DNA of 32,057 nucleotides from Chlorobiota bacterium (GTDB lineage Bacteria > Bacteroidota > Ignavibacteria > Ignavibacteriales > Melioribacteraceae). Below are positions 1,736 through 24,478 of this stretch, piece after piece. The position numbers and the translations under genes are program-made. Positions within the stretch are counted from its first letter, which is position 1; each line of letters begins with the position of its first letter. The DNA lies in assembly GCA_013151565.1 (NCBI GenBank), contig JAADIB010000380.1, positions 1 through 32,057 of the forward strand, in the 5' to 3' direction. The notes under the pieces are model-generated. The model had not been told where the DNA came from. It saw only the letters and a program-made list of their open reading frames with translations, and searched no databases.

Positions 1736-2653
1736 ATGAAAAAAGTATCGGTTATTGTTTTATTAACTCTCTTAGGTGCATCGCATCTGATTGCACAGAC
1801 AACCTATGATTTCTTGCGAATTGAAATGAGTCCTAGAGCAGCTGCATTAGGCGGCACGTATGTGTCTAATGCAAATGATCCAGATGTGATTTTTTATAAT
1901 CCCGCCGGGTTTAAGACGATTGAAAAAACTCCAGTCTCTTTTTCGTTCGTTAAACATTTGATGGACATAAACTCTGCAAGTCTTTCATCCACATTTGAAA
2001 TTGGTGGTTTAGGAAGATTTGGTGCTGCTATTCAATATATAAGTTACGGTAGTTTTGATAAAGCAGATGAATATGGAAATAAAACCGGTAATTTTAGTGC
2101 AGGTGATCTTTCGATGCTTATCGGCTATGCAAATTCACTTGCGGAAAATTTTTATTATGGAGTTAATTTAAAATTCATATACTCCAGTATTGATGAATAT
2201 TCATCTATGGGTCTTGCCGGTGATATAGGTCTGCAATATTTAATACCTAAGAAAGGCTGGAATTTTGGTTTCTCAGTTTTAAATTTAGGCAGTCAGCTGA
2301 CATACTATTCTTATACTAAGGAAGATCTTCCTACCTCGATTCAGTTTGGATTATCTAAAAAGCTGGAGCATACACCACTTGAAATTTTCTTTGCATTTAC
2401 CAGATTGAATGATGATAACAGGTTCGACTATATTAATGCCGGAGTCGAATTTACTTTAAGCAAAGTTATCCAACTTCGGTTTGGATATGACAACAACAGA
2501 AGAAAACAGCAAAAGGTCGGCGCATCATCGGGCTTAGCAGGATTTAGTTTTGGTTTGGGAGTAAATTTGAGCAGCTATAAATTCAATTATGCTTTTAGTT
2601 CGATGGGATCAATTGGAGCTTTACACAGAATTGGCATTGCGGCAGTTTTCTAG
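1736..2653 (+). CDS. PorV/PorQ-family outer-membrane beta-barrel protein
   Basis: Signal peptide; motif FLRIEMSPRAAALGGTYVSNANDPDVIFYNPAG; repeated beta-barrel-like pattern. Confidence 0.8.
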   Translation: MKKVSVIVLLTLLGASHLIAQTTYDFLRIEMSPRAAALGGTYVSNANDPDVIFYNPAGFKTIEKTPVSFSFVKHLMDINSASLSSTFEIGGLGRFGAAIQYISYGSFDKADEYGNKTGNFSAGDLSMLIGYANSLAENFYYGVNLKFIYSSIDEYSSMGLAGDIGLQYLIPKKGWNFGFSVLNLGSQLTYYSYTKEDLPTSIQFGLSKKLEHTPLEIFFAFTRLNDDNRFDYINAGVEFTLSKVIQLRFGYDNNRRKQQKVGASSGLAGFSFGLGVNLSSYKFNYAFSSMGSIGALHRIGIAAVF

Positions 2654-6697: not shown

Positions 6698-8464
6698 ATG
6701 AAATTTAAAAGAAGAACACATACTTGCGGCGAATTAAGAGAATCGAACATTAATGAAAAAGTTATTCTAAACGGCTGGGTTGATACAAGAAGAGACTTAG
6801 GCGGTGTAATATTTATTGATCTAAGAGACAGATATGGAATAACACAAATAGTTTTTGAACCTACATATAACGCCGAAGCGCATGAAATAGGAAAAGATCT
6901 TAGGAATGAATTTGTAATTGCAGTTGAAGGAACGGTAAGAAAACGTCCCGCTGATACAGAAAACACAAAAATTCCAACCGGATTTATAGACATAATGGTT
7001 GATAAACTTATTGTTCTTAATAAAGCTGAAACTCCACCGTTCCCTATTCAGGACGATGCCGACGTTAACGAAGATATTAGATTGAAGTATAGATATTTGG
7101 ATTTACGACGTGGAAAAATGCAGAAGAATATGCTTCTTCGTCATAAAATGTATCAGGCAGTACGCAATTATTTTGATCAGAATAGTTTTGTTGAAATAGA
7201 AACTCCGGTTTTGATGAAATCTACTCCGGAAGGCGCCCGTGATTTTCTTGTACCGAGCAGAATTCACAGGGGGAAATTCTATGCACTTCCTCAATCGCCG
7301 CAGACATACAAGCAGCTTTTGATGGTTTCCGGATTTGATAAGTACTTTCAAATTGTTAAGTGCTTTAGAGATGAGGACTTACGTGCAGACCGTCAGCCTG
7401 AATTTACTCAAATAGACGTTGAAATGTCCTTTGTTGACCAAGAAGATATTTTTGAGATGGTAGAAGGTCTCATGAAAAAATTATTCAAAGAGATCAAAGG
7501 TATTGATATTGACCTTCCACTACCGAGATTAAGCTTTAATGAAGCTATGGAAAAATATGGAAGTGATAAACCTGATCTGCGATTTGGTCTTGAAATGGTG
7601 ACGTTAAATCATGTTTTCGAAAATTCAGAATTCAGAGTTTTCAAAGACACTTTGGATAAAAACGGTATAATTACAGGACTTTTAGCCAAAGGATGCGGTG
7701 ATTATACTCGAAATCAGTTAGATGTGCTTACAAACTATGTTAAACAGCTTGGTGCGGGCGGATTGATATGGATGAGAGTTAAAGAAGACGGTTTAGAAGC
7801 GCCTGTAGCCAAATTTATGAGTGATGCTGAAAAACAAGGCATAATTGAGAATTTAAATGCAGAACCTGGCGATCTAGTGTTTATGATTTCCGGACCGAAA
7901 CTCAAATCACTGTCATATATGGGCTCATTAAGACTGGAAATGGCGAGAAGATTGGAGCTGATCAAAGAAAACGAGAAACCTTCATTGTTTTGGGTTACAG
8001 AATTTCCGCTGTTAGAATGGGATGAAGAAACAAAAAGATACTACGCAATGCATCATCCGTTTACTTCTCCTAATCTTGATGAAATTGATTTATTGGATTC
8101 AGATCCGGGAAAAGTTTCAGCTAGAGCATACGATCTTGTTTTGAACGGAAATGAAATTGCAGGTGGGAGTATCAGAATTCATGATTCCGAACTTCAATCC
8201 AAAATGTTTGATGCTTTAGGTATATCGAAAGAAGAAGCTAATGTTAAATTTGGGTTTCTTATGAATGCATTTAAGTACGGCGCTCCACCTCATGGTGGAA
8301 TAGCGTTTGGATTTGACAGACTTGCAATGCTTTTTGCCGGGGATCATTCAATTAGAGATGTAATTGCGTTCCCAAAAACCTCAAGCGGTATGTCATTAAT
8401 GGATGAATCTCCATCTTCTGTTGATGAAACTCAGTTAAAAGAGTTACATATTAAAGTTAGATAG
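6698..8464 (+). CDS. aspS: Aspartyl-tRNA synthetase
   Basis: RTHTCGELRESNINEKVILNGWVDTRRDLGGVIFIDLRDRYGITQIVF; RYLDLRRGKMQKNMLLRHKMYQAVRNYFD; FRDEDLRADRQPEFTQIDVEMSF; GGIAFGFDRLAMLF. ATG at 6698 preferred over the upstream TTG (6686) used by the track. Confidence 0.97.
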   Translation: MKFKRRTHTCGELRESNINEKVILNGWVDTRRDLGGVIFIDLRDRYGITQIVFEPTYNAEAHEIGKDLRNEFVIAVEGTVRKRPADTENTKIPTGFIDIMVDKLIVLNKAETPPFPIQDDADVNEDIRLKYRYLDLRRGKMQKNMLLRHKMYQAVRNYFDQNSFVEIETPVLMKSTPEGARDFLVPSRIHRGKFYALPQSPQTYKQLLMVSGFDKYFQIVKCFRDEDLRADRQPEFTQIDVEMSFVDQEDIFEMVEGLMKKLFKEIKGIDIDLPLPRLSFNEAMEKYGSDKPDLRFGLEMVTLNHVFENSEFRVFKDTLDKNGIITGLLAKGCGDYTRNQLDVLTNYVKQLGAGGLIWMRVKEDGLEAPVAKFMSDAEKQGIIENLNAEPGDLVFMISGPKLKSLSYMGSLRLEMARRLELIKENEKPSLFWVTEFPLLEWDEETKRYYAMHHPFTSPNLDEIDLLDSDPGKVSARAYDLVLNGNEIAGGSIRIHDSELQSKMFDALGISKEEANVKFGFLMNAFKYGAPPHGGIAFGFDRLAMLFAGDHSIRDVIAFPKTSSGMSLMDESPSSVDETQLKELHIKVR

Positions 8465-8482
8465 AGCTGTTTTCATGTAAAG

Positions 8483-8522
8483 CGATTCGCATACCTGCCC
8501 ATTTGGGAAATCGTTTTTTTTG
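8483..8522 (+). terminator. Candidate intrinsic terminator after aspS
   Basis: CGATT...AATCG stem with inner CCC-atttG-GG hairpin followed by a T tract. Confidence 0.5.
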
Positions 8523-8754
8523 AAATGCAAGATTATTTTCAATACTTCAAGACTGTATTTAGAAACACTTATCAATTGTTTCCCATGAATATTTTAAATT
8601 TCGATATATCAACAAGAGCGAATCAGCGATTCACGCTACGATTTTGTATCTAAATCATATGGTAATAACGTAAAATAACCAAATACTTGCTATTCAGATT
8701 GTTTAATTTTACTATTTCTTCGGTCTCTATTATTACAAGTAAATTCTACTCATT

Positions 8755-8832
8755 CGGTAAACATTGCACGTACAAATTACCGCATCAAAAATTAGGATTG
8801 TAAAACCTACATGTCATTTCCGGTATTTACCG
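8755..8832. promoter_or_regulatory. Candidate activator-binding region upstream of pilin genes
   Basis: CGGTAA (8755-8760) / TTACCG (8777-8782) inverted repeat and CGGTATTTACCG (8821-8832). Confidence 0.4.
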
Positions 8833-8942
8833 AAATTTTTCAACTTCTATTCTATAACGCAAAAACTAGATACTTATTCTTTTAATTTAAGAAACCCTTT
8901 GTTTAAACAATTTTTGAAGGTTTAGTCAATTCTAATTCAAAC

Positions 8943-8957
8943 TGGCACACAAATTGT
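8943..8957 (+). promoter_or_regulatory. Candidate sigma54 (-24/-12) promoter for pilin-like genes
   Basis: TGGCAC-acaaa-TTGT versus consensus TGGCAC-N5-TTGC; 65 bp upstream of the first pilin start. Confidence 0.6.
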
Positions 8958-9021
8958 CATTTAGAAGGAGCGGAATTTATTGATTTCAGCTGGAATAAAA
9001 AAATTATGACAGAGGAAAATT

Positions 9022-9402
9022 TTGGGACAACAGCAACTTTTATTGATCTTGCTAAGTATAATTATTGTCGGCATTGCAATTGTTGTTGGGATTAATGTCT
9101 TTAGTGCTAGTGCGGCTGAATCCAAAAGAGATAGTGTAAAAAATGAACTATTACATCTTGGAGGAATGGCACAACAGTATTATAAAACCCCAAGTGTTTA
9201 CGGTGGTGGAGAAAGAAAATTTATAAATTGGGAAATACCTACAACATTAAGATCAACAGCAAATGGAAGTTACAGAGCAAATGTATCAGATCAGCAGGTT
9301 GTTTTAATAGGAGTCGGGAATGAAATTGTTGCTGGTGGTGATTCAGTAGAGGTACATATGTTGATAACACCAAATAATTATGTAGTGCAAATAATAAATT
9401 AA
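9022..9402 (+). CDS. Type IV pilin-like protein 1
   Basis: TTG start preceded by AGAGGAAAA; M-GQQQLLLILLSIIIVGIAIVVGINVF hydrophobic N-terminal helix, C-terminal beta-rich region; paralogous to the next ORF. Confidence 0.78.
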   Translation: MGQQQLLLILLSIIIVGIAIVVGINVFSASAAESKRDSVKNELLHLGGMAQQYYKTPSVYGGGERKFINWEIPTTLRSTANGSYRANVSDQQVVLIGVGNEIVAGGDSVEVHMLITPNNYVVQIIN

Positions 9403-9472
9403 AATAATAAATAAAGAGATTTTTTTCTTAAAAACTAACTAATATTTAATAACAAATCTAAGGAGTAACAAA

Positions 9473-9868
9473 ATGGGACAACAACAACTTTTACTAATCG
9501 TACTTGGAGTAATTATAGTCGGTATAGCAGTCGTTGTAGGTATTAATGTATTTACTGCAAGCGCAATAGAAGCAAACAGAAATGCAGTTATATCTGATCT
9601 AACAAACTTAGCAACTATGGCACAGCAGCATTATAGGAAACCGGTAGCAATGGCTGGTGGTGGAAATGCATTTAACGCGTCAAAGGGAGGAACTGCTTGG
9701 ACAATTCCTGCACAATTAGATACAACAGCAAATGGTACTTATACTGCTACAGTAAATGCAGCAACTGTTGTACTCGTTGGAACAGGCACTGAATCGAGTG
9801 GGGGTTCACCTGTTAAAGTTACAATGACAGTAACTCCAACAAGTTTCACTTCCAAAGTCAATAACTAA
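9473..9868 (+). CDS. Type IV pilin-like protein 2
   Basis: ATG with AAGGAG RBS; MGQQQLLLIVLGVIIVGIAVVVGINVFTASAIEANRNAV...; shares MAQQ(H/Y)Y, GGG, STANG/TTANG(S/T)Y segments with pilin 1. Confidence 0.82.
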   Translation: MGQQQLLLIVLGVIIVGIAVVVGINVFTASAIEANRNAVISDLTNLATMAQQHYRKPVAMAGGGNAFNASKGGTAWTIPAQLDTTANGTYTATVNAATVVLVGTGTESSGGSPVKVTMTVTPTSFTSKVNN

Positions 9869-10590: not shown

Positions 10591-11937
10591 ATGATTGAAC
10601 TAAGATTTAATGCTATTAGACCCAATGGGCAAATTGTTATTGGCGGAATGTCTGCTCCCACTTATAGAGATGGGAAAAAACAAATTTTACAAATACTTAA
10701 GAAGCATAAGCTGAAGCTAAAATCAATCGAAAAGAAAGCCACTTTTGTTTATAAAATTAAAAGAGGAAACGAACCCGTACAGAAAGGTGAACAGAGAGCT
10801 TTTACTAAAGAAGAAGTTAAAACCGCTCTTACAAAAATGGGGTATCAAGTAGTTTCGGTAAATAAATATTTGTTTGAATGGAGTCCTAAACCCCCTGATC
10901 AGGAAATATTATCATATGTAAAAATAAGTGCTGAGCTGCTTGAGCAAAAGCTTCCATACAGTGAAATTATGACATTGCTGATCAATGATCTTGAAAATAA
11001 AACTTTAAGAGAAACGTTAAAACAAATTAATAATGACCTTAAAAGGGGAGCTGATAGTCAAACAACATTTGTAAGGTATGAACACATTTTTGGTAAATTT
11101 ACGGCCTATATGCTTGGCTTAGCAGCCAAAAGCGGTAATATGACAGAAATTTATAAAGCTACAGCAAAATTTCTCGAAAGAAGAATGCAGTTCCGTAAAG
11201 ATCTGAGAAGCGCTCTCATTACGCCTATGATAACTCTTTTTGTCCTGTTTATAGCGGTTCTATTTTATGTCGGATATATTTTCCCGGAAACCGCAAAGTT
11301 ATTCTTAAAATTTGATATTCCCTTGCCACCAATGACTGCCGCCACACTGGCATTCAGTAACTTTTTAATGGGTAATTGGCTGTTGGTTACGATAGTAGCG
11401 GCAGCGCCTTTAGTTGTGTTATGGCAAATGAAAAAGATTAAAAAGGGAAGGCTTTTTCTCGATAAGTGGATCATGAAAATACCAATTATTGGTTCACTGA
11501 TCCATAAAACATATATCGAAGTGTTCTGTCGTGTATTTTATACTTTATACAGCGGTTCGGCTGAAAGTATTGAACCGATTAGAATAGCAGCTGAAGCAAC
11601 AGATAATTCGTATTTTGAACATCAAATAAAAACCATTGCAATTCCTATGATGATAAAAAAAGGTGCCGGAATATCTGAATCTTTTGCTGCTGCCGGTGTA
11701 TTCACAGAGACAGCGCTTTCTCGTTTTCACTCTGGTGAGGAAACCGGAACAATAAAGAATACGACTCTGCAGTTAGCAAACTATTATGAAAGTGAAACTG
11801 TATTCAGATTAAAAAACGTAATTGAATTAATTCAAGTTGTGATAGCAATGGTAATAATGATTGTAATGATCGGATTGACATTGGTTTCAGCAGAAACAGC
11901 GACAATAAATCCATCAAACCCATCAATAACGAATTAA
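10591..11937 (+). CDS. pilC: Type IV pilus / type II secretion inner-membrane platform protein (PilC/GspF family)
   Basis: Two GspF-like helical domains with TM segments (ALITPMITLFVLFIAVLFYVGYIFPET; AMVIMIVMIGLTLVSAE); two N-terminal F/Y-x-x-x...G...G..A..L...G modules. Confidence 0.85.
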   Translation: MIELRFNAIRPNGQIVIGGMSAPTYRDGKKQILQILKKHKLKLKSIEKKATFVYKIKRGNEPVQKGEQRAFTKEEVKTALTKMGYQVVSVNKYLFEWSPKPPDQEILSYVKISAELLEQKLPYSEIMTLLINDLENKTLRETLKQINNDLKRGADSQTTFVRYEHIFGKFTAYMLGLAAKSGNMTEIYKATAKFLERRMQFRKDLRSALITPMITLFVLFIAVLFYVGYIFPETAKLFLKFDIPLPPMTAATLAFSNFLMGNWLLVTIVAAAPLVVLWQMKKIKKGRLFLDKWIMKIPIIGSLIHKTYIEVFCRVFYTLYSGSAESIEPIRIAAEATDNSYFEHQIKTIAIPMMIKKGAGISESFAAAGVFTETALSRFHSGEETGTIKNTTLQLANYYESETVFRLKNVIELIQVVIAMVIMIVMIGLTLVSAETATINPSNPSITN

Positions 11938-11952
11938 TAAAAGGAAATAAAA

Positions 11953-13740
11953 ATGCTTGATTCTCAACTGGAAATTACTGACAAAATAGGTTATCTCTTA
12001 CTTAAAAAGGGGATAATAGATGATGATATACTTGAAAAAGCATTGGTATTAAAACAAGAGGACCAAACTAAGGAAAGACGAAATCTTGCACAAATTTTAG
12101 TTCAAGAACTTAATTTCGATCACGACACAATTTTCAAAGAAGTTGCGGTACTATATGCTTTTAAAGAACTGAACATTCGGGTAAGTGAGTTGCCGGAAGA
12201 AAGAATTGAGGAGATAAAAAAACTTCTAAACTTAAGGGGCGATGATGTCCGCAATCAATTATTGCTTCATAAAATTTTGCCATACAGCTATGATAAATTA
12301 CGGGATAAAATTGTTTTAGGTGCTGTTGATCCCACAGATAAAGCCATTGCGAAAATAGTTTATAATCTTAATGTAAAAAAATTTGAAATAAATTTTTTGA
12401 AGAAAAAAGATTATGATAATCTAATTGAAATTATTGCTCCTCCCCAGAATGAATTTTTAAAACTTATTGAAGAAGCTGACGAAGAAATTTCGATTGATAC
12501 CGATGAAGCAAATGTTGATGAAGAAGAACTGGATGCAGAGATAAATAAAAGCGCGCTTGTTAACTTAATAGAAGCTGCATTAATTGAAGGCGTAAGAAGA
12601 GGTGTGAGTGATATCCATATTATTCCTAAAAGCGGTAAGAGAACAGAAATTCATTTTAGAATTGATGGTAAGCTATCGCTCTGGTATACTCAAGAAAATG
12701 TTCAACCGGAAGCTGTTATGGCTGTAATAAAAGACAGAGCCAAAGGACTTGACCGCTTTGAAAGAGAAAAAGCACAAGACGGATTTATTCAGAGACCTAT
12801 AGATAATACTATTATTCGATATAGAGTTTCTGTACTGCCGATGGTAGGTATTGAATTAAAGAATAAGTACGAAAGTATAGTAATAAGAATACTTGATGAT
12901 AGAAAGGTGATCAGGGATCTTGGTAAATTAGGATTAGTTGGATATGCAAATGAAGCTTTTCAAAAATCCATTAGTCAACCGCAGGGAATGGTGATTTTAA
13001 CTGGACCGACAGGAAGTGGTAAAAGTACAACTCTTGTTGCTGCCCTTTATCAAGTGATTGATCCGACTAAAAATGTTTTAACCGTTGAAGATCCTGTTGA
13101 ATATGTTATAGAAGGCGCCCGCCAGTTAAAAATTAGTTACAGAATGAATTTTGAACAGGCTATAAGATCAATATTAAGACATGACCCTGATATTGTTCTG
13201 GTAGGAGAAATGCGTGATAAAGAAACTGCTGAAACTGCTATTAAGCTTGCTAATACCGGTCACTTGACGTTTTCAACACTTCATACTAATGATGCGCCAA
13301 GTGCTGTAGCAAGACTTTATAAGATGGGGATTGAGCCATTTTTGATCGCCTATGCAATTAATATAATTGTAGCACAGCGTCTTGTTAGAAAGTTGTGTGA
13401 TAACTGTAAACGAAAAGTTGAGGCAATAAATGAAAAAGTTGCTAAAAGAGCCGGTATCAATATAGATGAATGGGCAAATTATGAAATTTATGAACCGGTA
13501 GGATGTGAAAAGTGCAATAATTCCGGTTACAAAGGTAGAATGGCTATTCATGAAGCGCTTTATTTTACTAAAGAAATAAGAGAGCTTATTGTACGTGCGG
13601 GAGAGGAAGTTGACGAAGATGCTGTGAGACAACAATCGAAGAAAGACGGTACATTGTCATTGAGAGAATCCGGGTTAGAGAAGGTAAAAGAAGGGCTAAC
13701 TTCATTGCAAGAAGTTCTTGCCGGAACAATGGATGAGTAA
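11953..13740 (+). CDS. pilB: Type IV pilus assembly / type II secretion ATPase (PilB/GspE family)
   Basis: Walker A GPTGSGKST; Asp box and RHDPDIVLVGEMRDKETAETAIKLANTGHLTFSTLHTNDA; zinc-binding CDNCKRK...CEKCNNSGYKGR. Confidence 0.95.
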   Translation: MLDSQLEITDKIGYLLLKKGIIDDDILEKALVLKQEDQTKERRNLAQILVQELNFDHDTIFKEVAVLYAFKELNIRVSELPEERIEEIKKLLNLRGDDVRNQLLLHKILPYSYDKLRDKIVLGAVDPTDKAIAKIVYNLNVKKFEINFLKKKDYDNLIEIIAPPQNEFLKLIEEADEEISIDTDEANVDEEELDAEINKSALVNLIEAALIEGVRRGVSDIHIIPKSGKRTEIHFRIDGKLSLWYTQENVQPEAVMAVIKDRAKGLDRFEREKAQDGFIQRPIDNTIIRYRVSVLPMVGIELKNKYESIVIRILDDRKVIRDLGKLGLVGYANEAFQKSISQPQGMVILTGPTGSGKSTTLVAALYQVIDPTKNVLTVEDPVEYVIEGARQLKISYRMNFEQAIRSILRHDPDIVLVGEMRDKETAETAIKLANTGHLTFSTLHTNDAPSAVARLYKMGIEPFLIAYAINIIVAQRLVRKLCDNCKRKVEAINEKVAKRAGINIDEWANYEIYEPVGCEKCNNSGYKGRMAIHEALYFTKEIRELIVRAGEEVDEDAVRQQSKKDGTLSLRESGLEKVKEGLTSLQEVLAGTMDE

Positions 13741-13820: not shown

Positions 13821-15044
13821 GTGACCGAAGCAAAAATAATTTTAGCAAAGTATGTTCAGAAAATACCAAAATCAATAATTGGTTCTGAAAAGATCAGTTT
13901 TGTTGTTAATTTAGTGGAGGAAATGTCTGCTGAACATAAGTTAATTCTTCATAAACTTCTCAACTATATCCTAACATTAATGATTGAAAAAGAAGCGTCT
14001 GACGTTGAGATAGGCGGATATGGTACCGAAGGGTATATTTGGTTCAGAATACACGGTAACAAAAGCCGAGTTGAAGATCTTCCGAAATTTAACCACCTTG
14101 AAACTGCAATTTTGATAGTCAGTATTTTAACGCCAAGCCAAAGTAAACATTTATTAATTGCTAGGAATATTGATTTTAGTTATTCATTTCATTATGATGT
14201 AATTAACGAGGATGTTCGTTTTAGAGCCGATGCTTATTTTGATCTTGATACCTTGGCTTTAAACATGAGAGCGATTTCCGCCTCTGTATTCCCTCTGCAT
14301 GCGTTGGGTTTTCATTCGAATGCTATCAAAATGATGAGTCATAGATATATTAAGTTTGGTCTATCGTTAGTAACCGGTATCACCGGGTCAGGTAAATCAA
14401 CGACTCTCGATTCACTCATTGATTATCATAATAAAAGTGAATCGGTTCATATTATTGTTATTTCATCTCCAGTAGAATTTGTGCATAAATCTAATAGATC
14501 TATAATAAGGCATAGAGAAGTTGGGAAAGATGTATTGTCATTCCAAGAAGGTGTTGTACAAGCCTTAAGACAAGACCCTGACATAATAGTTATTGGTGAA
14601 ATGAGGGATCCTGAGACCATAATGGCTGCTTTAGAGGTAACTGATACCGGTCATAAAGTATTTTCTACGCTTCATACATCTTCTGCAACAGAATCAATTG
14701 ACAGAATTATTGCAGAAGTAAATCCTGTAGAACAGGAAAGGGTAAGAAACAGACTTGCGGATGTTCTTGTTACTATTGTATCTCAAAAACTTATTCCGAC
14801 TGTTGATGGCAAAAGAACAATGGCAAAAGAGGTCTTAATCGTTACTCCAAGTGTTAAAGCTGCAATAAAAAACAACAATACGAGTGAAATTTACATGATG
14901 ATGGTACAAGGCGGTCCTCATGGTATGATTACAATGGAACAAGATTTGCTAAGACTTATGAAAGAAGGAAAAATTACTAGGGAAACGGCTCTTGGTTATT
15001 CAAATAATAAAACTAGAATGTTACAATTACTCAGGGGATCTTAA
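13821..15044 (+). CDS. PilT-like twitching/retraction ATPase
   Basis: GTG start; GITGSGKSTTLDSLIDYHN, RQDPDIIVIGEMRDPETIMAALEVTDTGHKVFSTLHTSSA; no Cys4 zinc motif. Confidence 0.88.
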   Translation: MTEAKIILAKYVQKIPKSIIGSEKISFVVNLVEEMSAEHKLILHKLLNYILTLMIEKEASDVEIGGYGTEGYIWFRIHGNKSRVEDLPKFNHLETAILIVSILTPSQSKHLLIARNIDFSYSFHYDVINEDVRFRADAYFDLDTLALNMRAISASVFPLHALGFHSNAIKMMSHRYIKFGLSLVTGITGSGKSTTLDSLIDYHNKSESVHIIVISSPVEFVHKSNRSIIRHREVGKDVLSFQEGVVQALRQDPDIIVIGEMRDPETIMAALEVTDTGHKVFSTLHTSSATESIDRIIAEVNPVEQERVRNRLADVLVTIVSQKLIPTVDGKRTMAKEVLIVTPSVKAAIKNNNTSEIYMMMVQGGPHGMITMEQDLLRLMKEGKITRETALGYSNNKTRMLQLLRGS

Positions 15045-15047
15045 AAT

Positions 15048-16601
15048 ATGAAGCCTCTTGTGTGTATATATTGTGAAGGCAGTGATTTAAAATTATCAGT
15101 TATTTCAAGAGAAAAAGAAAAATTATGTATTCATTCAATATTTACTGTTGAGCTTACAGAACTTGAATTGGGAACCAGTGCTACCGAGCAATTAGCCGAT
15201 TTCAGTAAGGAAGATATTTCTGATGGTCTTACTTTTGATTCCTTCAATGGTGGAATTGATTTGACACATCAAAAAGCAAATTCTAATGCAACAGATGTTG
15301 AATTAATTGCTGCTTCTTTAGCTGAGTTTAATTTAAATCAAGCACAGTTCATACCTGTAGTTACTGATCCGAATGTAAACTTTCATATCTACGAAAACTC
15401 TGACGAAAAAAACAAAAGCAACCTTCTTGATAAAATAATTAAAGATATTCTAGTTACTAAAGGTATCACAGTATTAAAAGATAATATTGACTATATCAGT
15501 ATTGATGAAAATACATATTTATGTGTGTTCATTGATAAAGAGATTTCTTGTGTTAATCTGGTTAATTCTGTTGCGGCGTATAACGGAAAACGTTACTATA
15601 AGATCAACTCGATTAAGAATGCAGAAATCGCTCTTGCAAATTATGTATCCAAAACAACTAAATTTTTCGCTGAAGATTATACTCTAGTTATTTATATAGG
15701 AAAAGAGTATAGCAAATTGATCTTCCTTGAAGGACAAAATCTAAGTCATATTGGAGCTACGCTGGATATAGGCACATCAAACTTAAATACGTATGATGTG
15801 TACTTTTCAAAAATTCTTTTAGAGATGGAAAATGGAGGAATACCGAGACTTGATAATGTTGTTCTCTGCGGGGAAGACCGTTCCGAAAATTTGGTGCTTT
15901 CGTTTTATGGTACTTTCCCAGAAGCAAACGTTACTAAATTAAAATTCGATCTATTTGATTTAGCCGACCTCGAAGAAGACGATCAAAATAATATTTCAAC
16001 TTATTCTGTACCGATTGCCGCTGCTTATGAATACTATGCAGAGGAGGATAAGGAACTGAAAGGAATAAATATTCTTCCTCGTTATATTATTGAAAATCAG
16101 AAATTCTTACAGTTCGGCTGGCATAGTTTTGTAGTACTGCCATTCCTATTTATCGCCACATTTTTATTCACATATCTGATCTTATCAAATAATATGAATA
16201 TGGTTAATCTTGATAAAGAAATTCAGAGGATGAAAGAATTAGAAATTCAAAATCAAGAGATAATTGCTAAAATTGAGCCTCTTGAAAGTAGAATAGCCAA
16301 TTTTGATAATACACAGGCAATTTTGGACTCGGCAATGAGCGGTACGGAAGTGTGGGGTAAAACATTAGAAAAGGTTGCTAATTTTGTTGAACGAAGAAGA
16401 AATTTCTGGGTTTCAAATATTGAAACCAAAAATCTTGAAGATCTTACTCTGAGAGGATACTCTCTCTCGAGAACAGTATTAACAGAGTTTGCTGAATATA
16501 ATAATTCGTCAATATTGCAGAATGTATTGTATGAACCATTACGCGAGAAAAATGCTTTTGCGTATATTATGAATTTTAAATTGCAGAAGAATGAACAATG
16601 A
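15048..16601 (+). CDS. GspL-like PilM-PilN fusion (actin-like cytoplasmic region, single TM, periplasmic PilN-like domain)
   Basis: Position in the operon after the ATPases; N-terminal ~360 aa with LVIYIGKEYSKLIFLEGQNLSHIGATLDIG; TM WHSFVVLPFLFIATFLFTYLIL; following coiled coil and Fld-like fold VWGKTLEKVANFVERRRNFWVSNIE. Confidence 0.65.
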   Translation: MKPLVCIYCEGSDLKLSVISREKEKLCIHSIFTVELTELELGTSATEQLADFSKEDISDGLTFDSFNGGIDLTHQKANSNATDVELIAASLAEFNLNQAQFIPVVTDPNVNFHIYENSDEKNKSNLLDKIIKDILVTKGITVLKDNIDYISIDENTYLCVFIDKEISCVNLVNSVAAYNGKRYYKINSIKNAEIALANYVSKTTKFFAEDYTLVIYIGKEYSKLIFLEGQNLSHIGATLDIGTSNLNTYDVYFSKILLEMENGGIPRLDNVVLCGEDRSENLVLSFYGTFPEANVTKLKFDLFDLADLEEDDQNNISTYSVPIAAAYEYYAEEDKELKGINILPRYIIENQKFLQFGWHSFVVLPFLFIATFLFTYLILSNNMNMVNLDKEIQRMKELEIQNQEIIAKIEPLESRIANFDNTQAILDSAMSGTEVWGKTLEKVANFVERRRNFWVSNIETKNLEDLTLRGYSLSRTVLTEFAEYNNSSILQNVLYEPLREKNAFAYIMNFKLQKNEQ

Positions 16602-17491
16602 ACCGAAAACTTAAAAACACATTAGTTTTAATTGCTATATTTCTGTTGATTATAATAGGAGGCAGTATTTTTAGTTTTGTTATCCAAAAAAGCAAGATAG
16701 ACAATAAAAAGAAAGAATTAAATAGTCTAAATGCCAATACGACGAATACTGAAGAACTTATGGCTAAGTTTGATAACTTAAAAAGAAGAGCTGCCGAACT
16801 GGATTCGATATTATCATTGCGGAAATTTAATATTCCGGTTAATGTTTCTCAATCCGATTTTTATGATTTTGTAAATAAAATCAGTTACAATTTTGCCCCG
16901 GATTCATATGTTAATATTGAGTATGTCGAACTTATCAATCAAAAGCATTATAACTATTACACTTATAAGCTATCAGGAACGGCATATTTTAATGATGTTT
17001 ATAAATTAATTTATGCAATTGAGCAAAGCAAATCTTTAAAAAAGATACTTACATGTAATTTCACAAACTTCGTAAGTGTTGATGATGATGGCTTACCTCA
17101 TTACTATGTTAACTATACGTTTAAAGTAGCGGTATATTTTTCTTCCAATGATCAGTTTGCGTCTTCGGTTACAAAGGAGAATAAATTAATACCGAACCCT
17201 ATTTACGATATTTTCTATCCCCTGATAAGAAATGAGATACCTCCTAATTTAGATAATTTATTGGATGTTCAGTCGGCACAATTGTTAGCTTTAATACCGG
17301 AAGGTGCCTTCATCTCGGATTCAAAAGGTGTTACATATTTACTCTGGGAAGGAGATCAGGTTTATCTAGGGTATCTAACAGAAATTGACTATGACAAAAA
17401 TGAAGTTCACTTTGTGTTAAACAAAGGTGGTATTATAGAAAAAGTAACTTTAACATTAGATAATGAAAACAGTGATAAAAAGAATAATTGA
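16598..17491 (+). CDS. PilO/GspM-like protein with C-terminal PilP/GspC-HR-like tail
   Basis: N-terminal TM then coiled coil and PilO-like region; C-terminal SDSKGVTYLLWEGDQVYLGYLTEIDYDKNEVHFVLNKGGIIEKVTLTL; 4-bp ATGA overlap with upstream gene. Confidence 0.6.
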   Translation: MNRKLKNTLVLIAIFLLIIIGGSIFSFVIQKSKIDNKKKELNSLNANTTNTEELMAKFDNLKRRAAELDSILSLRKFNIPVNVSQSDFYDFVNKISYNFAPDSYVNIEYVELINQKHYNYYTYKLSGTAYFNDVYKLIYAIEQSKSLKKILTCNFTNFVSVDDDGLPHYYVNYTFKVAVYFSSNDQFASSVTKENKLIPNPIYDIFYPLIRNEIPPNLDNLLDVQSAQLLALIPEGAFISDSKGVTYLLWEGDQVYLGYLTEIDYDKNEVHFVLNKGGIIEKVTLTLDNENSDKKNN

Positions 17492-18784
17492 GTGAATAAA
17501 ATGAAAACAACATTAGCATTACTAATATCGTTTCTATTTACAATTCCAATCTTTGGTCAAAAGAATTTGGAAAAACGGATGAAACAATACGTTAATCCCG
17601 AAGAAATTGTTACACTAGCTGAGAATATCCCATTCGATAAAGCTATTGAGGTTCTGAGCAAGGTGAGTCAAAAAACAACGGGTAAAAAAATCATTCTTAC
17701 AAGCGATTATACCGATCCGATTGGAATTGAAATAACCAAACTGCCATTCAAGAGAGCGCTTAATATAATTACTCAGTATCACGATATGGTTTACGAGGAA
17801 ACAGCTGATAACATCATTGTTAAACCCGAAACTAAATCGAAGGAGAAATTGGGTGAAGCTATCTATGCAGACGTAGACTCTCGTGAAATTAAGATATCAG
17901 CCCTCTTTTTTGAAGCCAATATTACGGAGATGAAGGAGAGAGGAGTCAATTGGGATCTCTTATTACAAAAGACAGGACTAGCTTTTGGTGCAAATTTAAA
18001 ATCATTCACAACTGGTAGAGAAAATCAGAATTCGAATACGCAGCAACAAGTAGACCCACTTGAATTTACGTTAGATAACGCAACAGATTTTAATATGGGC
18101 GATTTCAGCGGTAATATTGTCGGTGCTTTTAAATTTTTTGAATCTAACGGACTTGGTGAACTAATTGCACGTCCATCCATCACTGTACGAGACAAGGCTA
18201 AAGGAAGAATACAAATTGGGGAGGACATCTCAATAAAAGAACGTGACTTTTCCGGAAATCTGATCGATCGATTCTATTCAACCGGTACAATTGTAGAAGT
18301 TACTCCATATATCTATAAGGAAGACGGTGTTAACTATGTTATGCTGAAACTACAGGCAGAAAGAAGTTCTGCCGAACCTGGTGAGATTTCAACTACGATC
18401 AGGAAAACCGTTGCAAATACAGAAGTACTGATGCTCAACGGGGAAGAAACTATTATTGGTGGTTTATTCACTCATAACGAAGTAACATCTAGAACAGGAA
18501 TTCCATTCTTGAAGGATCTTCCGTGGTGGGTATTCGGAATAAGATATTTAACTGGTTCAGATAAAACTGAAATACTTAAACGGGAAATTATAATTTTGAT
18601 AAAGATTGATGTGCTTCCTACGCTTAAAGAAAGAGTTGTTCAAAAGAAAACCGATTTGATCAAAGAAGAAATACTTAGGAATAGAGGGTATTTAGATCAA
18701 GTGACTAAGCAAAAGCTTGAAGCACACAAAAAAGCTGATGAAAACACAGCGAAGTTATTGTCTAAAGATGGCGAAGGGGAATAG
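17492..18784 (+). CDS. Minimal secretin (GspD/PilQ family)
   Basis: Signal peptide; one STN/N0-like region; NTEVLMLNGEETIIGGLFTHNEVTSRTGIPFLKDLPWWVFGIRYL typical of secretin C-terminal domain; alternative ATG at 17501. Confidence 0.88.
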   Translation: MNKMKTTLALLISFLFTIPIFGQKNLEKRMKQYVNPEEIVTLAENIPFDKAIEVLSKVSQKTTGKKIILTSDYTDPIGIEITKLPFKRALNIITQYHDMVYEETADNIIVKPETKSKEKLGEAIYADVDSREIKISALFFEANITEMKERGVNWDLLLQKTGLAFGANLKSFTTGRENQNSNTQQQVDPLEFTLDNATDFNMGDFSGNIVGAFKFFESNGLGELIARPSITVRDKAKGRIQIGEDISIKERDFSGNLIDRFYSTGTIVEVTPYIYKEDGVNYVMLKLQAERSSAEPGEISTTIRKTVANTEVLMLNGEETIIGGLFTHNEVTSRTGIPFLKDLPWWVFGIRYLTGSDKTEILKREIIILIKIDVLPTLKERVVQKKTDLIKEEILRNRGYLDQVTKQKLEAHKKADENTAKLLSKDGEGE

Positions 18785-18789
18785 TTAAA

Positions 18790-19167
18790 GTGGACTCAAT
18801 TCTGATAGTTGATGATGATATAAAATTATGTGCGACTCTGTCGGAAGACCTTAATGAAATAGGATACTACACTCGTTTTGTTACTACGGCTGACGGGGCA
18901 ATCAATTATCTCAATAGTTCATCGGTGGACCTCATCCTATTAGATTTGAGAATGCCTAATAAGGACGGCTTTTATGTTATCAATCATATAAATAATAGTA
19001 GTAATTATAATCTCAGAATTATTGTTCTTACTGCGAATGTTGATATCGATAGTGCAATTGAATCAGCTAAATTAGGAGTTGATGAATTTTTACGTAAGCC
19101 TTATGATTTTGATGAATTATTAATAACAGTTAAAAGGGTTTTGCAGAAAGAAGCATATGAAAATTAA
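18790..19167 (+). CDS. Single-domain response regulator (REC)
   Basis: SILIVDDDIKL; LILLDLRMPNKDG; TAN; KPYD; GTG start. Confidence 0.9.
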   Translation: MDSILIVDDDIKLCATLSEDLNEIGYYTRFVTTADGAINYLNSSSVDLILLDLRMPNKDGFYVINHINNSSNYNLRIIVLTANVDIDSAIESAKLGVDEFLRKPYDFDELLITVKRVLQKEAYEN

Positions 19168-22100
19168 TTTACGATTGTTACTGATCACTTTTACAGTAAT
19201 AGTAATAATATCATTGTCTTCAACCTTTATTTATTATTCCACTACGACATCTTTACTAAAAAAGCAATACTCTCAAAGTTTGCTCAATGCAAAGAACGAT
19301 TTTGCTTTTGAATTACAGTCAGGGATAAAAATAATCGAAGAAGAATTTTCTAGGATCATAAAAAATTCTGATGATCTTACTTCGGTATCTCTTGATTCAA
19401 CCACCCTGGATTTTGTATTTACTCTAAATAAAGAAAATGCAATTGATCAGAATTCATTTATATACAGTAAATTAATTCAACCGCCTGCACTAATAAATTC
19501 TATTGAAGAGTTCATTGATATCTATCCGAATATTATTCTTCTTTATGCGAAAAATAAAAAATCAGGAAACGTTTTTTATGGCAAAATAATAAATGAAAAG
19601 TATTTAGATAAATTATCGTTAAAAATTAGAGCAGAAATCGCTTTTCTGGTTGATGGACTCCCAAACCAAATTACAAATTCAGGTGCTAATGGAACATATC
19701 TGTCTAATTTTATCAATGCAAATAAGCAGCTCAATTCCTCTAATAAAATAGATGTATATTATGAAGAGTTAAATACCGGCGATTTTTTTGCGTCAATATA
19801 CAGAGCCAAAAATTTAAATGTTGCAGATGTTACATCTTCCTTTTTGATCTTTAATACTCCAACTGAACTTTACGAGTTCCGCAATACTATCCAGATGATA
19901 ATGCTGATATTTACGCTTGCCGGAATATTATTATCATTAATTTTTATTTTACTATTTACAACAAAACTACGAAAGCAAATTTCGTTACTAAGTAAAACAA
20001 CAAACCTAATTGCAAATGGGGAGTTGAATCATCGAGTACCTATAATTTCTAAGGATGAGCTAGGACAACTTGGAACAGCATTTAATGACATGCTCGACAG
20101 GTTAGAAACTAAAGAGAAAATTGAGAAAAGATATCTGGATATTGTAACTATCATAAATGAAAATCCATCTTTAGATGTTCTTTCTAATTTATTATTGGAA
20201 AAATTAATTGGTGATACTGGTTCTACCTTTGGTGCATTCTATCTGGTTGATAACGATAAACTGAAACCTATATCTACATACGGCATTAGCGAAGAAACAC
20301 TTAGTGCTTCTGTGGAGGCTGATCTTTATACTAAAGTAATTCAAAAACAAGAGAATGTTGAAATTGTTTTTGAAAAAGATTTCCCGTCAATTAAAACCGG
20401 GTTATTGGAAATTAATGTTAAGTATTTGTTAATTATTCCAATTGTGTTTGATAAAAATGTAATTGCTGTAATTGAAATAGCAAGTGAGCATGAACCTAGT
20501 GAAAATCCCAAAGAGTATTTGGAGAGCATCAAAGAACAACTTGCTATTGGCATTAATAATACTGCTTCACTTGAACAGCTTAAGAATCTCGTTAATGAAC
20601 TCAAAGTCCTGAACGAACAATATCAGCAGCAGAATGAAAAAATTGTTGAGCAAAACAAAGAGTTAAAAAAACTCCACAAAGATCTACAAGAGAAAGCAGA
20701 AGAACTGGAAGAGCAAAGAAAAAAAGCAATCGAGTTGACTCATGTAAAATCACAGTTCTTAGCAAATATGTCTCATGAACTTAGAACTCCTCTTAATTCA
20801 ATTATCGGATTAACAGAATTGATTTCTGAGGATTCAACAACATTCCCGAAAACAAAAGATAGATTAAAAATCGTTCTACGCAATGGTAAAAAGTTACTTG
20901 CAATGATCAACAATATACTTGAATTTTCTAAAATAGAGTCGGGAAAATTTGAAATTACAAAAAGTGATTTTATTATCAGTGAATTTTTAAATGACATCTT
21001 CCTTGCAATGGAACCTCTGGTAGCCGAGAAGGAACTCCAGCTTTCGATTGTTTATGCAAGCGATAATGATTTAATGGTAAATACTGATAAGCATAAATTA
21101 GAACAAATAATTCTTAATCTTGTGATCAATGCAATAAAGTTTACTGAAGTTGGTGGTATAAAAATCAACATCGACGTAATTAAAGATAAGACATTAAAAG
21201 TTGATATTATTGATACCGGTATCGGGATTTCGGATGAAAATAAAAAGCTGATCTTCGAAGAATTTAAACAAGTCGATTTGACCAGGACCCGGAAATATCA
21301 GGGTGCCGGCTTAGGTTTGGCAATCTGCAGAAAGTATATTGAGCTTCTAGGCGGAACTATATCAGTTCAGAGCAATGAATTCAAAGGGACTACATTTACA
21401 TTATTATTACCGAATGTTATTCTTGATAAACTACCTCTGCTCGAAAAGTATAAGTATTCAACAAGTGATTTGAGCAAACAAGGTAATAGAAAAAAACTTC
21501 TTCTTATTCATGGTGATGCTCAAAATAAGATTGCAATTGAAAATTATTTTGAAAAAAGCGAGTATGATGTAATTCAAAGCAAACCGAATTTAGAAGTAAT
21601 CGATCAATTGGGGAATGTTGCGTTAGACGGTATTATAATAAATGCAACAAATATAACCAACGTCTATTGGGATATACTTCATGAATTGAAGAAAAATCAA
21701 TTGACAACAGATATCCCTTTGAGTCTTATTTCTATACAGCCTGATAGTAATAAATTATATTTATTTGAAGCTTTTGAAATAATCATTGGACCGAGGAATA
21801 TTGAGAAGTTGAAATATTGCCTAGACCTTGTAAAGCTCAATAATAACAACGGTAAAAAGATTTTGTGGCTTGGAGAAGATTCAGAAGAAAGAGAAAATCT
21901 TGTTCAACAGATGAGAAGCTTCGCTAATATTTCTCTTACTTCCGAAATAGGAAATATCAGTGAAGATATTGATGAAATTAAACCTGACGTTTTAATCGTT
22001 GATACAATTATTGAAAATGAAACCACATTAAAATTAATTTCTTACTTACAGCAGTCCTATAAAATCCCAATTATTGCAACAATACATGAAAGCATTGATG

Positions 22101-22687
22101 AATTAGATAAGCAAAGACTAATCAGCGCTGTAAACACAATGGTTATGGACTTTGGTAAGAGTCCGGAAGAGGTCTTCAAAACGATCGATAGAAAATTTTC
22201 TTTGATGAAAAAATTGAAAAAAAGCATTAGTTTCCCTATTGAAAATAAGAGTCTTAGTGAAAACAGGGAAACTATTCCACCAGTACCTATATCAGAACCG
22301 GAAGAAAATAATTTTCATATATTGGTTGTTGATGATGATAAGGACACTCTTTTTACAGTTGGAGAAATCGTAAAGAATATCGGCTGTTCAATTTCTTTTG
22401 CTAATAACGGAGCAGAGTGTTTAACACAATTGAAAACTATTACTCCTGATCTTATATTACTTGATATAATGATGCCCGTTTTAGATGGATTTGAAACCAT
22501 CAAAAAAATTCGTTCCGATAAAGAAACAAAAGACTTAACGGTTTATGCAATGACAGCACAAGCAATGTTAGATGATTTTGATATTATTAAAAAAAGCGGC
22601 TTTAATGATTTAATAACTAAACCTATTGATACTTCAACTTTGTCATTTAAGATTCAGCAGCGTATTCAGCAAATATTAAAACAGTAA
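19157..22687 (+). CDS. Hybrid sensor histidine kinase: TM-sensor-TM-HAMP-GAF-coiled coil-HisKA-HATPase_c-two REC-like segments-REC
   Basis: HAMP-like LSKTTNLIANGELNHRVPIISKDELGQLGTAFNDM; H-box SQFLANMSHELRTPLNSIIGL; N/G boxes IDTGIGI, GAGLGLAICRKYIELLGG; C-terminal VVDDDK...LILLDIMMPVLDG. Confidence 0.93.
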   Translation: MKINLRLLLITFTVIVIISLSSTFIYYSTTTSLLKKQYSQSLLNAKNDFAFELQSGIKIIEEEFSRIIKNSDDLTSVSLDSTTLDFVFTLNKENAIDQNSFIYSKLIQPPALINSIEEFIDIYPNIILLYAKNKKSGNVFYGKIINEKYLDKLSLKIRAEIAFLVDGLPNQITNSGANGTYLSNFINANKQLNSSNKIDVYYEELNTGDFFASIYRAKNLNVADVTSSFLIFNTPTELYEFRNTIQMIMLIFTLAGILLSLIFILLFTTKLRKQISLLSKTTNLIANGELNHRVPIISKDELGQLGTAFNDMLDRLETKEKIEKRYLDIVTIINENPSLDVLSNLLLEKLIGDTGSTFGAFYLVDNDKLKPISTYGISEETLSASVEADLYTKVIQKQENVEIVFEKDFPSIKTGLLEINVKYLLIIPIVFDKNVIAVIEIASEHEPSENPKEYLESIKEQLAIGINNTASLEQLKNLVNELKVLNEQYQQQNEKIVEQNKELKKLHKDLQEKAEELEEQRKKAIELTHVKSQFLANMSHELRTPLNSIIGLTELISEDSTTFPKTKDRLKIVLRNGKKLLAMINNILEFSKIESGKFEITKSDFIISEFLNDIFLAMEPLVAEKELQLSIVYASDNDLMVNTDKHKLEQIILNLVINAIKFTEVGGIKINIDVIKDKTLKVDIIDTGIGISDENKKLIFEEFKQVDLTRTRKYQGAGLGLAICRKYIELLGGTISVQSNEFKGTTFTLLLPNVILDKLPLLEKYKYSTSDLSKQGNRKKLLLIHGDAQNKIAIENYFEKSEYDVIQSKPNLEVIDQLGNVALDGIIINATNITNVYWDILHELKKNQLTTDIPLSLISIQPDSNKLYLFEAFEIIIGPRNIEKLKYCLDLVKLNNNNGKKILWLGEDSEERENLVQQMRSFANISLTSEIGNISEDIDEIKPDVLIVDTIIENETTLKLISYLQQSYKIPIIATIHESIDELDKQRLISAVNTMVMDFGKSPEEVFKTIDRKFSLMKKLKKSISFPIENKSLSENRETIPPVPISEPEENNFHILVVDDDKDTLFTVGEIVKNIGCSISFANNGAECLTQLKTITPDLILLDIMMPVLDGFETIKKIRSDKETKDLTVYAMTAQAMLDDFDIIKKSGFNDLITKPIDTSTLSFKIQQRIQQILKQ

Positions 22688-22691
22688 CAAT

Positions 22692-23405
22692 ATGAAAAAA
22701 ATATTAGTAGTTGACGATCAGAAAGATAATGTATTTGTTCTGCAGGAAAGACTATCGAGAGAAGGGTTTGAAGTATTAGCCGCATATGATGGGCCCACTT
22801 GCTTAACTATGGCGCAAGAAGAGAACCCCGATCTTATTCTGCTTGATGTGATGATGCCGGGTATGTCGGGATTTGAAGTTTGCAGAAAGCTTACATCATC
22901 GGAAGATACTAAATTAATACCGGTTGTTTTGCTTACGGCTTTGACCGAGGCTGAAGATCTAAAGGAAGGTTTTGAAGCCGGCGCTTTTGACTATATTAAA
23001 AAGCCGTTTAACAGAGTTGAACTTATTGCACGCATTAAATCTGCGCTTAGTTTCAGAGAATCTCAAAAGGTAATGCTGGAAATAGAAAAAGTTCAAACAT
23101 ATGCTGCTACTGTAATCACTGCTAATCATGAAATTAAACAACCGCTGACACTCATCAATCTTTCGACAGCTGCAATAAACAGAGAACTGCGTAAAGATGA
23201 ATTATCAAAAGATGTTGTTCAAAAAAGAGTGACATTTATTGAAGAGGCAACAAAAGAAATTATTTCTGTTCTGCAGAAGTTAAGCTCAATAAAAGTTCCT
23301 GTACTCACTAATTGGGTAAACGATTTGAAAGTTGTTGATCTTTCGAAGGCAAAACATGAAGCTGATAAATTAGAAGGTAGCGTTCCTGATCAATTCAATC
23401 ATTAA
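22692..23405 (+). CDS. Response regulator with REC plus HisKA-like dimerisation/phosphotransfer domain, no HATPase_c
   Basis: KILVVDDQKDN, LILLDVMMPGMSG, KKPFN; C-terminal ITANHEIKQPLTLINLSTAAINREL. Confidence 0.82.
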   Translation: MKKILVVDDQKDNVFVLQERLSREGFEVLAAYDGPTCLTMAQEENPDLILLDVMMPGMSGFEVCRKLTSSEDTKLIPVVLLTALTEAEDLKEGFEAGAFDYIKKPFNRVELIARIKSALSFRESQKVMLEIEKVQTYAATVITANHEIKQPLTLINLSTAAINRELRKDELSKDVVQKRVTFIEEATKEIISVLQKLSSIKVPVLTNWVNDLKVVDLSKAKHEADKLEGSVPDQFNH

Positions 23406-24476
23406 ATCGAAGTCATAAGGTTTTTTAATTATTTTGTTTATGCCTAGCTTTTTAAATTTCTTTTCGTCTGCTTCCTGAAGTCCGGTCGTAAGTATTATGG
23501 GAATAGCCTTATTCTTTTTTCTAATATTTTTTACTACTTCCAGTCCATCCACAATAGGCATAAATTTATCAATGATCATCAAATCAATATCATCATTTTC
23601 ATCAAACTGCTGAATAGCTAGTTCCCCGTTTGCTGCACAGACTGTTTCATAATCATACGATTCAAGAAGGTAACAAATTGATTCAAGAATTGGAGCTTCA
23701 TCTTCGGCAATAAGAATTTTTTTGATCTTTTCTTTATTTGTTTTCTTCTTTAATGATTTAACAGCAGGAAGTGTGATTATGAATTCTGTACCTTTATCTA
23801 CTTTGCTTTTTATACTAATCTCTCCATCATGAATTTCAATAATATTTTTAACAATGGATAGCCCTAAGCCAGAAACTACCTTTTTCTGTTTGGTGCTGTA
23901 TCCTTCAGTAAAAATGGACTTCAACGATTCTTCACTAATGCCGCAGCCAGTATCTTTAATTGAAATAACAATACTTGGTTCTTTTTTTCTTGAAGAGACA
24001 TTCCTTGCTTTAATTGTTATTTTACCGTTACCTTCAATAGATTCAACTGCATTAAGGGCAAGATTTAACAAAGCTCTATATAAATCAGAGTAAAACCCGT
24101 TAACTTTATATAAGTTTTTAATGACGCTAACATTGAGATCAACATTATCACCGAGTGAGCCTCTGAGAGTTCTGATAACATCATTGATTAAATCATTGAT
24201 GTTTATACGACGTTTAATTCGCTCGCCAATACCTTCGGATACGAGCAGCTCCTCAATTAGTTCCGTTGCTCTAATGGAATTTGTTTCAATATTTGTAAGG
24301 TACTTTTGAATTTTGTCTTTCGGCTTAATTAATTGCTTGATAGCGGCAATAGAATTATTACTGCTGGTTAGTATATTATTAAGATCGTGAGCGGCTTGTC
24401 TAATTCTAGTATTTAAAGATATAATCTCGTTTTCTTTCGATTTTAAAGAGGAAGTTTCTTTTTTGATTTTAGTCAT
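23370..24476 (-). CDS. Cytosolic hybrid histidine kinase (HisKA-HATPase_c-REC)
   Basis: H-box RQAAHDLNNILTSSNNSI; IKDTGCGISEE, GLGLSIVKNIIEIHDGEISIKS; REC KILIAEDEAP...LMIIDKFMPIVDG. Confidence 0.9.
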   Translation of the reverse strand: MTKIKKETSSLKSKENEIISLNTRIRQAAHDLNNILTSSNNSIAAIKQLIKPKDKIQKYLTNIETNSIRATELIEELLVSEGIGERIKRRININDLINDVIRTLRGSLGDNVDLNVSVIKNLYKVNGFYSDLYRALLNLALNAVESIEGNGKITIKARNVSSRKKEPSIVISIKDTGCGISEESLKSIFTEGYSTKQKKVVSGLGLSIVKNIIEIHDGEISIKSKVDKGTEFIITLPAVKSLKKKTNKEKIKKILIAEDEAPILESICYLLESYDYETVCAANGELAIQQFDENDDIDLMIIDKFMPIVDGLEVVKNIRKKNKAIPIILTTGLQEADEKKFKKLGINKIIKKPYDFDLMIELIRNATF

Positions 24477-24478
24477 TA

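Follow-up and report, generated by a model that had tools for sequence, protein, structure and literature searches.

Can a type IV pilus be assembled from subunits that never carry a leader peptide? This question is raised by two tandem genes in a stretch of 32,057 nucleotides (hereafter, the window; contig JAADIB010000380.1, assembly GCA_013151565.1) from a Chlorobiota bacterium of the family Melioribacteraceae, class Ignavibacteria. In canonical pilins, a leader of 6-26 residues is cut off to generate the N-terminus. The products of the open reading frames (ORFs) 9022-9402 (TTG start, 126 amino acids (aa)) and 9473-9868 (ATG start, 131 aa), with the N-termini MGQQQLLLILLSIIIVGIAIVVGINVF and MGQQQLLLIVLGVIIVGIAVVVGINVF, respectively, lack the hydrophilic leader (6-26 residues, with Gly at its end) that defines a class III signal peptide: translation begins with M-G, and, as pointed out in a preliminary description of this DNA and confirmed from the ORFs, both proteins start with MGQQQLLLI and continue into an unbroken hydrophobic helix. 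We consider it highly probable that both serve as major subunits of a type IV pilus that is complete and functions in the absence of a prepilin peptidase. The broader proposition, that the type IV pilus of Ignavibacteria and related lineages is complete and retractable and is built from leaderless subunits only, major and minor alike, with Met1 in the place of Phe1/Met1 and Gln5 in the place of Glu5, appears rather likely. The start sites, the family, the fold prediction, the gene linkage, the absence of the A24 peptidase and canonical pilins, and the leaderless minor pilins that enter this assessment were all computed directly.

The two genes and their start regions are as follows.

9022..9402, forward strand: leaderless major pilin 1, TTG start, MGQQQLLLILLS..., member of family alignment A1
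9473..9868, forward strand: leaderless major pilin 2, ATG start, MGQQQLLLIVLG..., member of family alignment A1, modeled with AlphaFold2
9007..9024, forward strand: start region of pilin 1, with an in-frame TGA (9007-9009), a GAGG ribosome-binding site and the TTG; a leader cannot fit
9461..9475, forward strand: start region of pilin 2, with an AAGGAG ribosome-binding site and the ATG

The in-frame TGA leaves only four codons ahead of the TTG of pilin 1, and the ribosome-binding sites of both genes are suitably spaced from the start. The two proteins are 51% identical to each other, and neither they nor the members of the family alignment match any pilin family in Pfam or NCBIfam, N_methyl (PF07963) included; weak Pfam matches to Invasin_D3 and MacB_PCD were disregarded. 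A first scan of public genomes, with MGQQQLLL among its seeds, found at least 389 relatives, mostly from Ignavibacteria; the 79 loci kept include a Calditrichaeota record and Candidatus Chrysopegis. In 142 genes on these loci, GQQQ is immediately preceded by ATG (111), TTG (18) or GTG (13). A larger, non-redundant collection comprises 224 major pilins, with ATG as the start codon in 192 genes, TTG in 17 and GTG in 15; the upstream stop and the start are separated by a median of 4 codons. Among the 223 genes with an upstream stop available, 214 have no alternative in-frame start (an upstream ATG is present in one), and in 174, 4 or more nucleotides match the Shine-Dalgarno sequence, compared to 11% in shuffles. 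A longer leader is excluded because of the upstream stops, the lack of alternative starts and the Shine-Dalgarno signal; the possibility, raised at the outset, that an upstream in-frame start restores a canonical leader is thus ruled out by the stop in the window together with the family survey.

The alpha-1 helix of canonical mature pilins spans approximately residues 1-54, and the pilin fold combines such a helix, of about 53 residues, with an antiparallel sheet. The AlphaFold2 model of pilin 2 consists of a continuous helix (residues 2-55) followed by a four-stranded sheet (mean pLDDT 90.1), and that of a type 1 minor pilin (see below) of a helix (residues 3-55) followed by four strands (mean pLDDT 91.8), so that the primary translation products already appear to be of mature-subunit length. 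The models thus predict a pilin-type architecture, in line with the earlier characterization of the proteins as pilin-like, but the Foldseek matches are not significant (see below).

Pilus genes and minor pilins

Downstream of the pilin genes, the window encodes the following pilus proteins.

10591..11937, forward strand: PilC/GspF inner-membrane platform (PF00482, 2.6e-28; GspF, HofC and PilC models of NCBIfam, ~1e-39, below cut-offs)
11953..13740, forward strand: PilB-type assembly ATPase (PF00437, 8e-103; TIGR02538 PilB, 4.8e-125, below cut-off)
13821..15044, forward strand: PilT-type retraction ATPase (TIGR01420, 329.1 bits, exceeding the 319.1 cut-off)
15048..16601, forward strand: PilM-like protein (weak match to the Amuc_1101 PilM-like model, 0.0024; conserved position)
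16598..17491, forward strand: PilN/PilO-like inner-membrane protein (assigned by conserved position between pilM and pilQ and by inspection)
17492..18784, forward strand: PilQ/GspD-type secretin (PF00263, 2.4e-22; TIGR02515, 5.3e-27, below cut-off)

All the components that characterize a machine of the type IV filament superfamily, namely, a PilB/GspE-family ATPase, a PilC/GspF platform and a secretin, are present, as is the PilT/PilU-family retraction ATPase typical of type IVa pili. By inspection, the PilM-like protein probably contains a PilN-like C-terminal part, and the PilN/PilO-like protein has no relevant family match in Pfam or NCBIfam. The linkage of MGQQQ-type genes to pilC and pilB, at first a feature of a single locus, turned out to be conserved: in tblastn searches with the window proteins, the order pilA-pilC-pilB-pilT, mostly followed by pilM-pilN/O-pilQ, was recovered in most of the approximately 100 loci, with protein identities of about 20-78% across the collected loci.

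Three leaderless minor-pilin-like genes, whose products also start directly at the helix, are located between pilB and pilT in several families and elsewhere in others. In the window's genome, they form the following trio.

Contig C465, L171:6743-7252, 7261-7884 and 7896-9209: minor pilins of types 1, 2 and 3, in this order

This operon (L171:6743-9209) lies on a contig separate from the main pilus cluster. Type 1 follows the pattern M-x-x-x-Q, with Met1 and Gln5 invariant in 21 sequences (in L096, only via a two-residue gap) and Gly2 not kept (MN, MS). In type 2, Asp is conserved at residue 6-8, and many of the proteins have an E-x-D-x-x-K-x-G motif, whereas most type 3 proteins contain Lys or Arg at positions 3-4, and two of the three checked contain a DUF4900 domain, which may be a pilus-tip domain. 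In a sample of 171 genomes, the type 1 minor pilin is present in 92, the major pilin in 91 and both in 90. A separate case is genome G008, which encodes a minor-pilin trio (L175:991-3417), yet the MGQQQ major pilin and the T2SSF platform were not detected in it; the type 1 protein of this trio begins with MGSGH rather than MGSGQ.

Prepilin peptidases and canonical pilins in Ignavibacteria

Neither an A24 prepilin peptidase nor an N_methyl pilin was detected in the window's genome (467 contigs, 90% complete). Because this assembly is fragmented and incomplete, we sampled the class as a whole using 250 near-complete genomes of Ignavibacteria. The leaderless pilin is present in 134 of these genomes, the T2SSF platform in 132, A24 in 13 and N_methyl pilins in 16. 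The leaderless pilin and the platform occur together in 130 genomes (Fisher p ~1e-63, relatedness ignored), among which A24 is absent in 117, and A24 and N_methyl pilins are both absent in 113; the A24 search was positive in 12 of 14 control genomes. Six closed, single-contig genomes (G030, G104, G109, G139, G151 and G167) encode a major pilin, a minor pilin and the platform, and no A24. These closed genomes and the class-wide counts rule out the possibility that a pilD gene is merely hidden by the fragmented assembly. In a sample of the phylum, A24 is absent in 129 of the 145 genomes with the leaderless pilin family. One family of this sample (f35, genomes of 2-3.3 Mb) shows the reverse of the pattern in the class of the window, with A24 but no leaderless pilin.

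The leaderless pilin is present in all 13 A24-positive genomes of the class, and nearly all of these also encode canonical, leader-bearing pilins. In 11 of the 13, a canonical pilin is encoded within 2 kb of A24; with one exception, the leaders of these pilins comprise 9-34 residues, counted from the earliest start available, and end in G|F/Y-[S/T]-x-x-E. The PilB, PilC and PilT proteins adjoining A24 are only ~20-43% identical to those of the window and are encoded apart from the leaderless cluster. Such loci (L104-L114 and L121) represent a second, canonical system resembling the type II secretion system (T2SS) or the type IV pilus, with its own A24 and leader-bearing pilins, in a minority of the class genomes. 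A clear canonical system (L112) shares a genome with a leaderless locus (L100); thus, within one cell, the leader, Glu5 and the peptidase all belong to the canonical system and are missing from the leaderless one. Borrowing of A24 from a second system is ruled out as a general solution by its presence in only 13 of the 250 class genomes, mostly in physical association with canonical pilins.

Residue 5 and N-terminal processing

The preliminary description had emphasized the lack of Glu5 and, for the case of cleavage after Gly2, placed Leu at this position. Glu, the canonical residue at mature position 5, is indeed missing under either numbering: a cut behind Gly2 puts Leu there, and counted from Met1, residue 5 is Gln. 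This Gln is invariant in the major and type 1 minor subunits, an invariance that is partly built into the set of 224 proteins by the inclusion of Gly2 and Gln5 in the search pattern, whereas residues 3 and 4 were limited solely by a loose pattern. These two residues do vary (QQ, TQ, SQ, NQ, TL, TK), but Gln5 is kept in the major pilins, of which the divergent ones begin with MGTQQ, MGSQQ, VGNQQ (GTG start), MGTLQ or MGTKQ. If Met is counted as residue 1, the hydrophobic stretch starts at residue 6, and the major and type 1 minor pilins align, weakly, in the Met1/Gln5 register (E 0.026). Most likely, Gln5 in this numbering would act as the substitute for the Glu5 that is nearly invariant in canonical mature pilins.

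We propose that translation begins at the hydrophobic assembly helix itself, so that the nascent chain would already have the assembly-ready N-terminus that other pilins acquire by leader removal, and that a prepilin peptidase is therefore unnecessary. The subunit would insert into the membrane as a single-pass protein in the N-in/C-out orientation, PilC and PilB would extract it for helix-to-helix packing in the filament, and export and retraction of the filament would be the tasks of PilQ and PilT, respectively; the three leaderless minor pilins encoded on contig C465 would probably prime the filament. Met1 could be kept, kept in the formylated form, or removed by methionine aminopeptidase.

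Methionine aminopeptidase accepts Gly favorably as the second residue. Trimming by this housekeeping enzyme, which would supply a free amino end and a mature pilin starting with Gly1-Gln2-Gln3-Gln4, is a quite possible if tentative variant of the leaderless scheme, with which its probability overlaps. The Gly2 present in every major pilin collected suits it, and the free, positively charged amino end would aid the N-in topology, whereas Asn2 in several type 1 and Phe2 in many type 3 minor pilins should block the enzyme, with the type 1 register unchanged. A different kind of processing would be the removal of a Met-Gly leader by a peptidase unrelated to A24, or by a very divergent A24, producing a mature pilin that begins with Gln-Gln-Gln, similarly to archaeal class III pilins, which start with Gln. 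Some archaeal pilins have a G|Q cleavage site. The invariant Gly2 followed by Gln would fit this scheme, Gly at position -1 being a hallmark of prepilin cleavage (PMC4471445). We nevertheless consider it unlikely because A24 is missing in most of the genomes with the system and in the closed ones, the conserved cluster includes no peptidase-like gene, there is no positively charged leader, Gly2, unlike Met1 and Gln5, is not conserved in the type 1 minor pilins, and a cut behind residue 2 puts Leu at position 5. Thus, of the two routes initially envisaged, insertion without processing is backed by the absence of A24 in 117 of 130 genomes, whereas no peptidase was identified for cleavage of a two-residue leader.

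It also appears very unlikely that, instead of being filament subunits, the proteins serve a secretion machine of the PilB/PilC type as membrane-anchored components or as substrates, considering the multi-copy major subunit with its predicted long helix and sheet, the accompanying trio of minor pilins, the PilT-type ATPase that exceeds the family cut-off, and the lack of any other detected pilin in the genome. In favor of such a machine, no experiment shows filaments, and homology to canonical pilins is undetectable by sequence. Both points also weigh against a leaderless pilus, as do the partly built-in invariance of Gln5 and several further findings. Profile comparison of leaderless and canonical pilins gave no significant match. 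The best match of the major pilin to PDB in Foldseek is a PilA fusion, at a non-significant E of 0.68, and no pilin appeared among the matches listed for the minor pilin, which are chance matches. A highly divergent peptidase could be missed by the Pfam model used for A24 detection. There is no positive charge ahead of the membrane helix to set the N-in topology. Finally, Glu5 mutants fail to homopolymerize in the systems studied (PMC4471445), and therefore a Gln5 filament would need other compensation; perhaps the neutral Gln5 is matched by another arrangement, such as an uncharged N-terminus.

Relation to known systems and neighboring genes

The system of the window resembles the type IVa pilus in its assembly ATPase, PilT, platform, secretin, PilM/N/O-like genes, and predicted extended alpha-1 helix with a C-terminal sheet, but differs in being leaderless, in having Gln5 instead of Glu5, and in lacking both an A24 peptidase/methylase and an N_methyl family match. 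With the type II secretion pseudopilus (GspG-K), it shares a major subunit accompanied by a minor trio, types 1, 2 and 3 being similar in order and size, by inspection, to GspI, GspJ and GspK; unlike in the pseudopilus, the minor subunits are leaderless, PilT is present, and the type 3 subunit carries DUF4900. In archaeal class III pilins, Gly-Gln opens the hydrophobic helix, as it does here, but archaeal pilins have leaders and A24-type peptidases, and the window system has neither. Glu5 is often missing in archaeal class III pilins (PMC4471445). The T2SS-like system of Cytophaga, from Bacteroidetes, a phylum related to that of the window, has a divergent major pilin and branches apart from other T2SS; it is classed among the type IV filament systems, and the passages that deal with it describe no leaderless system (PMC6668835). 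In the genome of Melioribacter roseus, pilT, pilQ, pilB and pilC, the same set as in the window, were reported, whereas pilA and pilD were not found; no pilin gene was recognized, and the set was considered incomplete (PMC3534657). Leaderless pilins could account for both genes reported missing.

The prepilin peptidase and the cleaved leader are regarded as core to type IV filaments in reviews and surveys (PMC4471445, PMC6668835), and our search of open-licence papers found no account of leaderless type IV pilins or peptidase-independent pili. If the leaderless pilus is real, neither the prepilin peptidase nor the class III signal peptide would be essential for the assembly of type IV filaments, the leader would be dispensable both for insertion and for holding subunits ahead of assembly, and the roles of Glu5 and N-methylation could be probed in a natural test case. 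Searches for pili that rely on N_methyl and A24 models would then overlook these subunits in over 100 of the genomes sampled.

Following the secretin gene, the region 18790-25825 of the window encodes response regulators, a hybrid histidine kinase of 1176 aa and a regulator of the sigma-54 type. The first regulator behind the secretin gene is 54% identical to a regulator that also adjoins pilQ in locus L116, and hence may control the pilus. Elsewhere in the window (1736-2653), inspection of the sequence indicates a PorV/PorQ-like outer-membrane protein.
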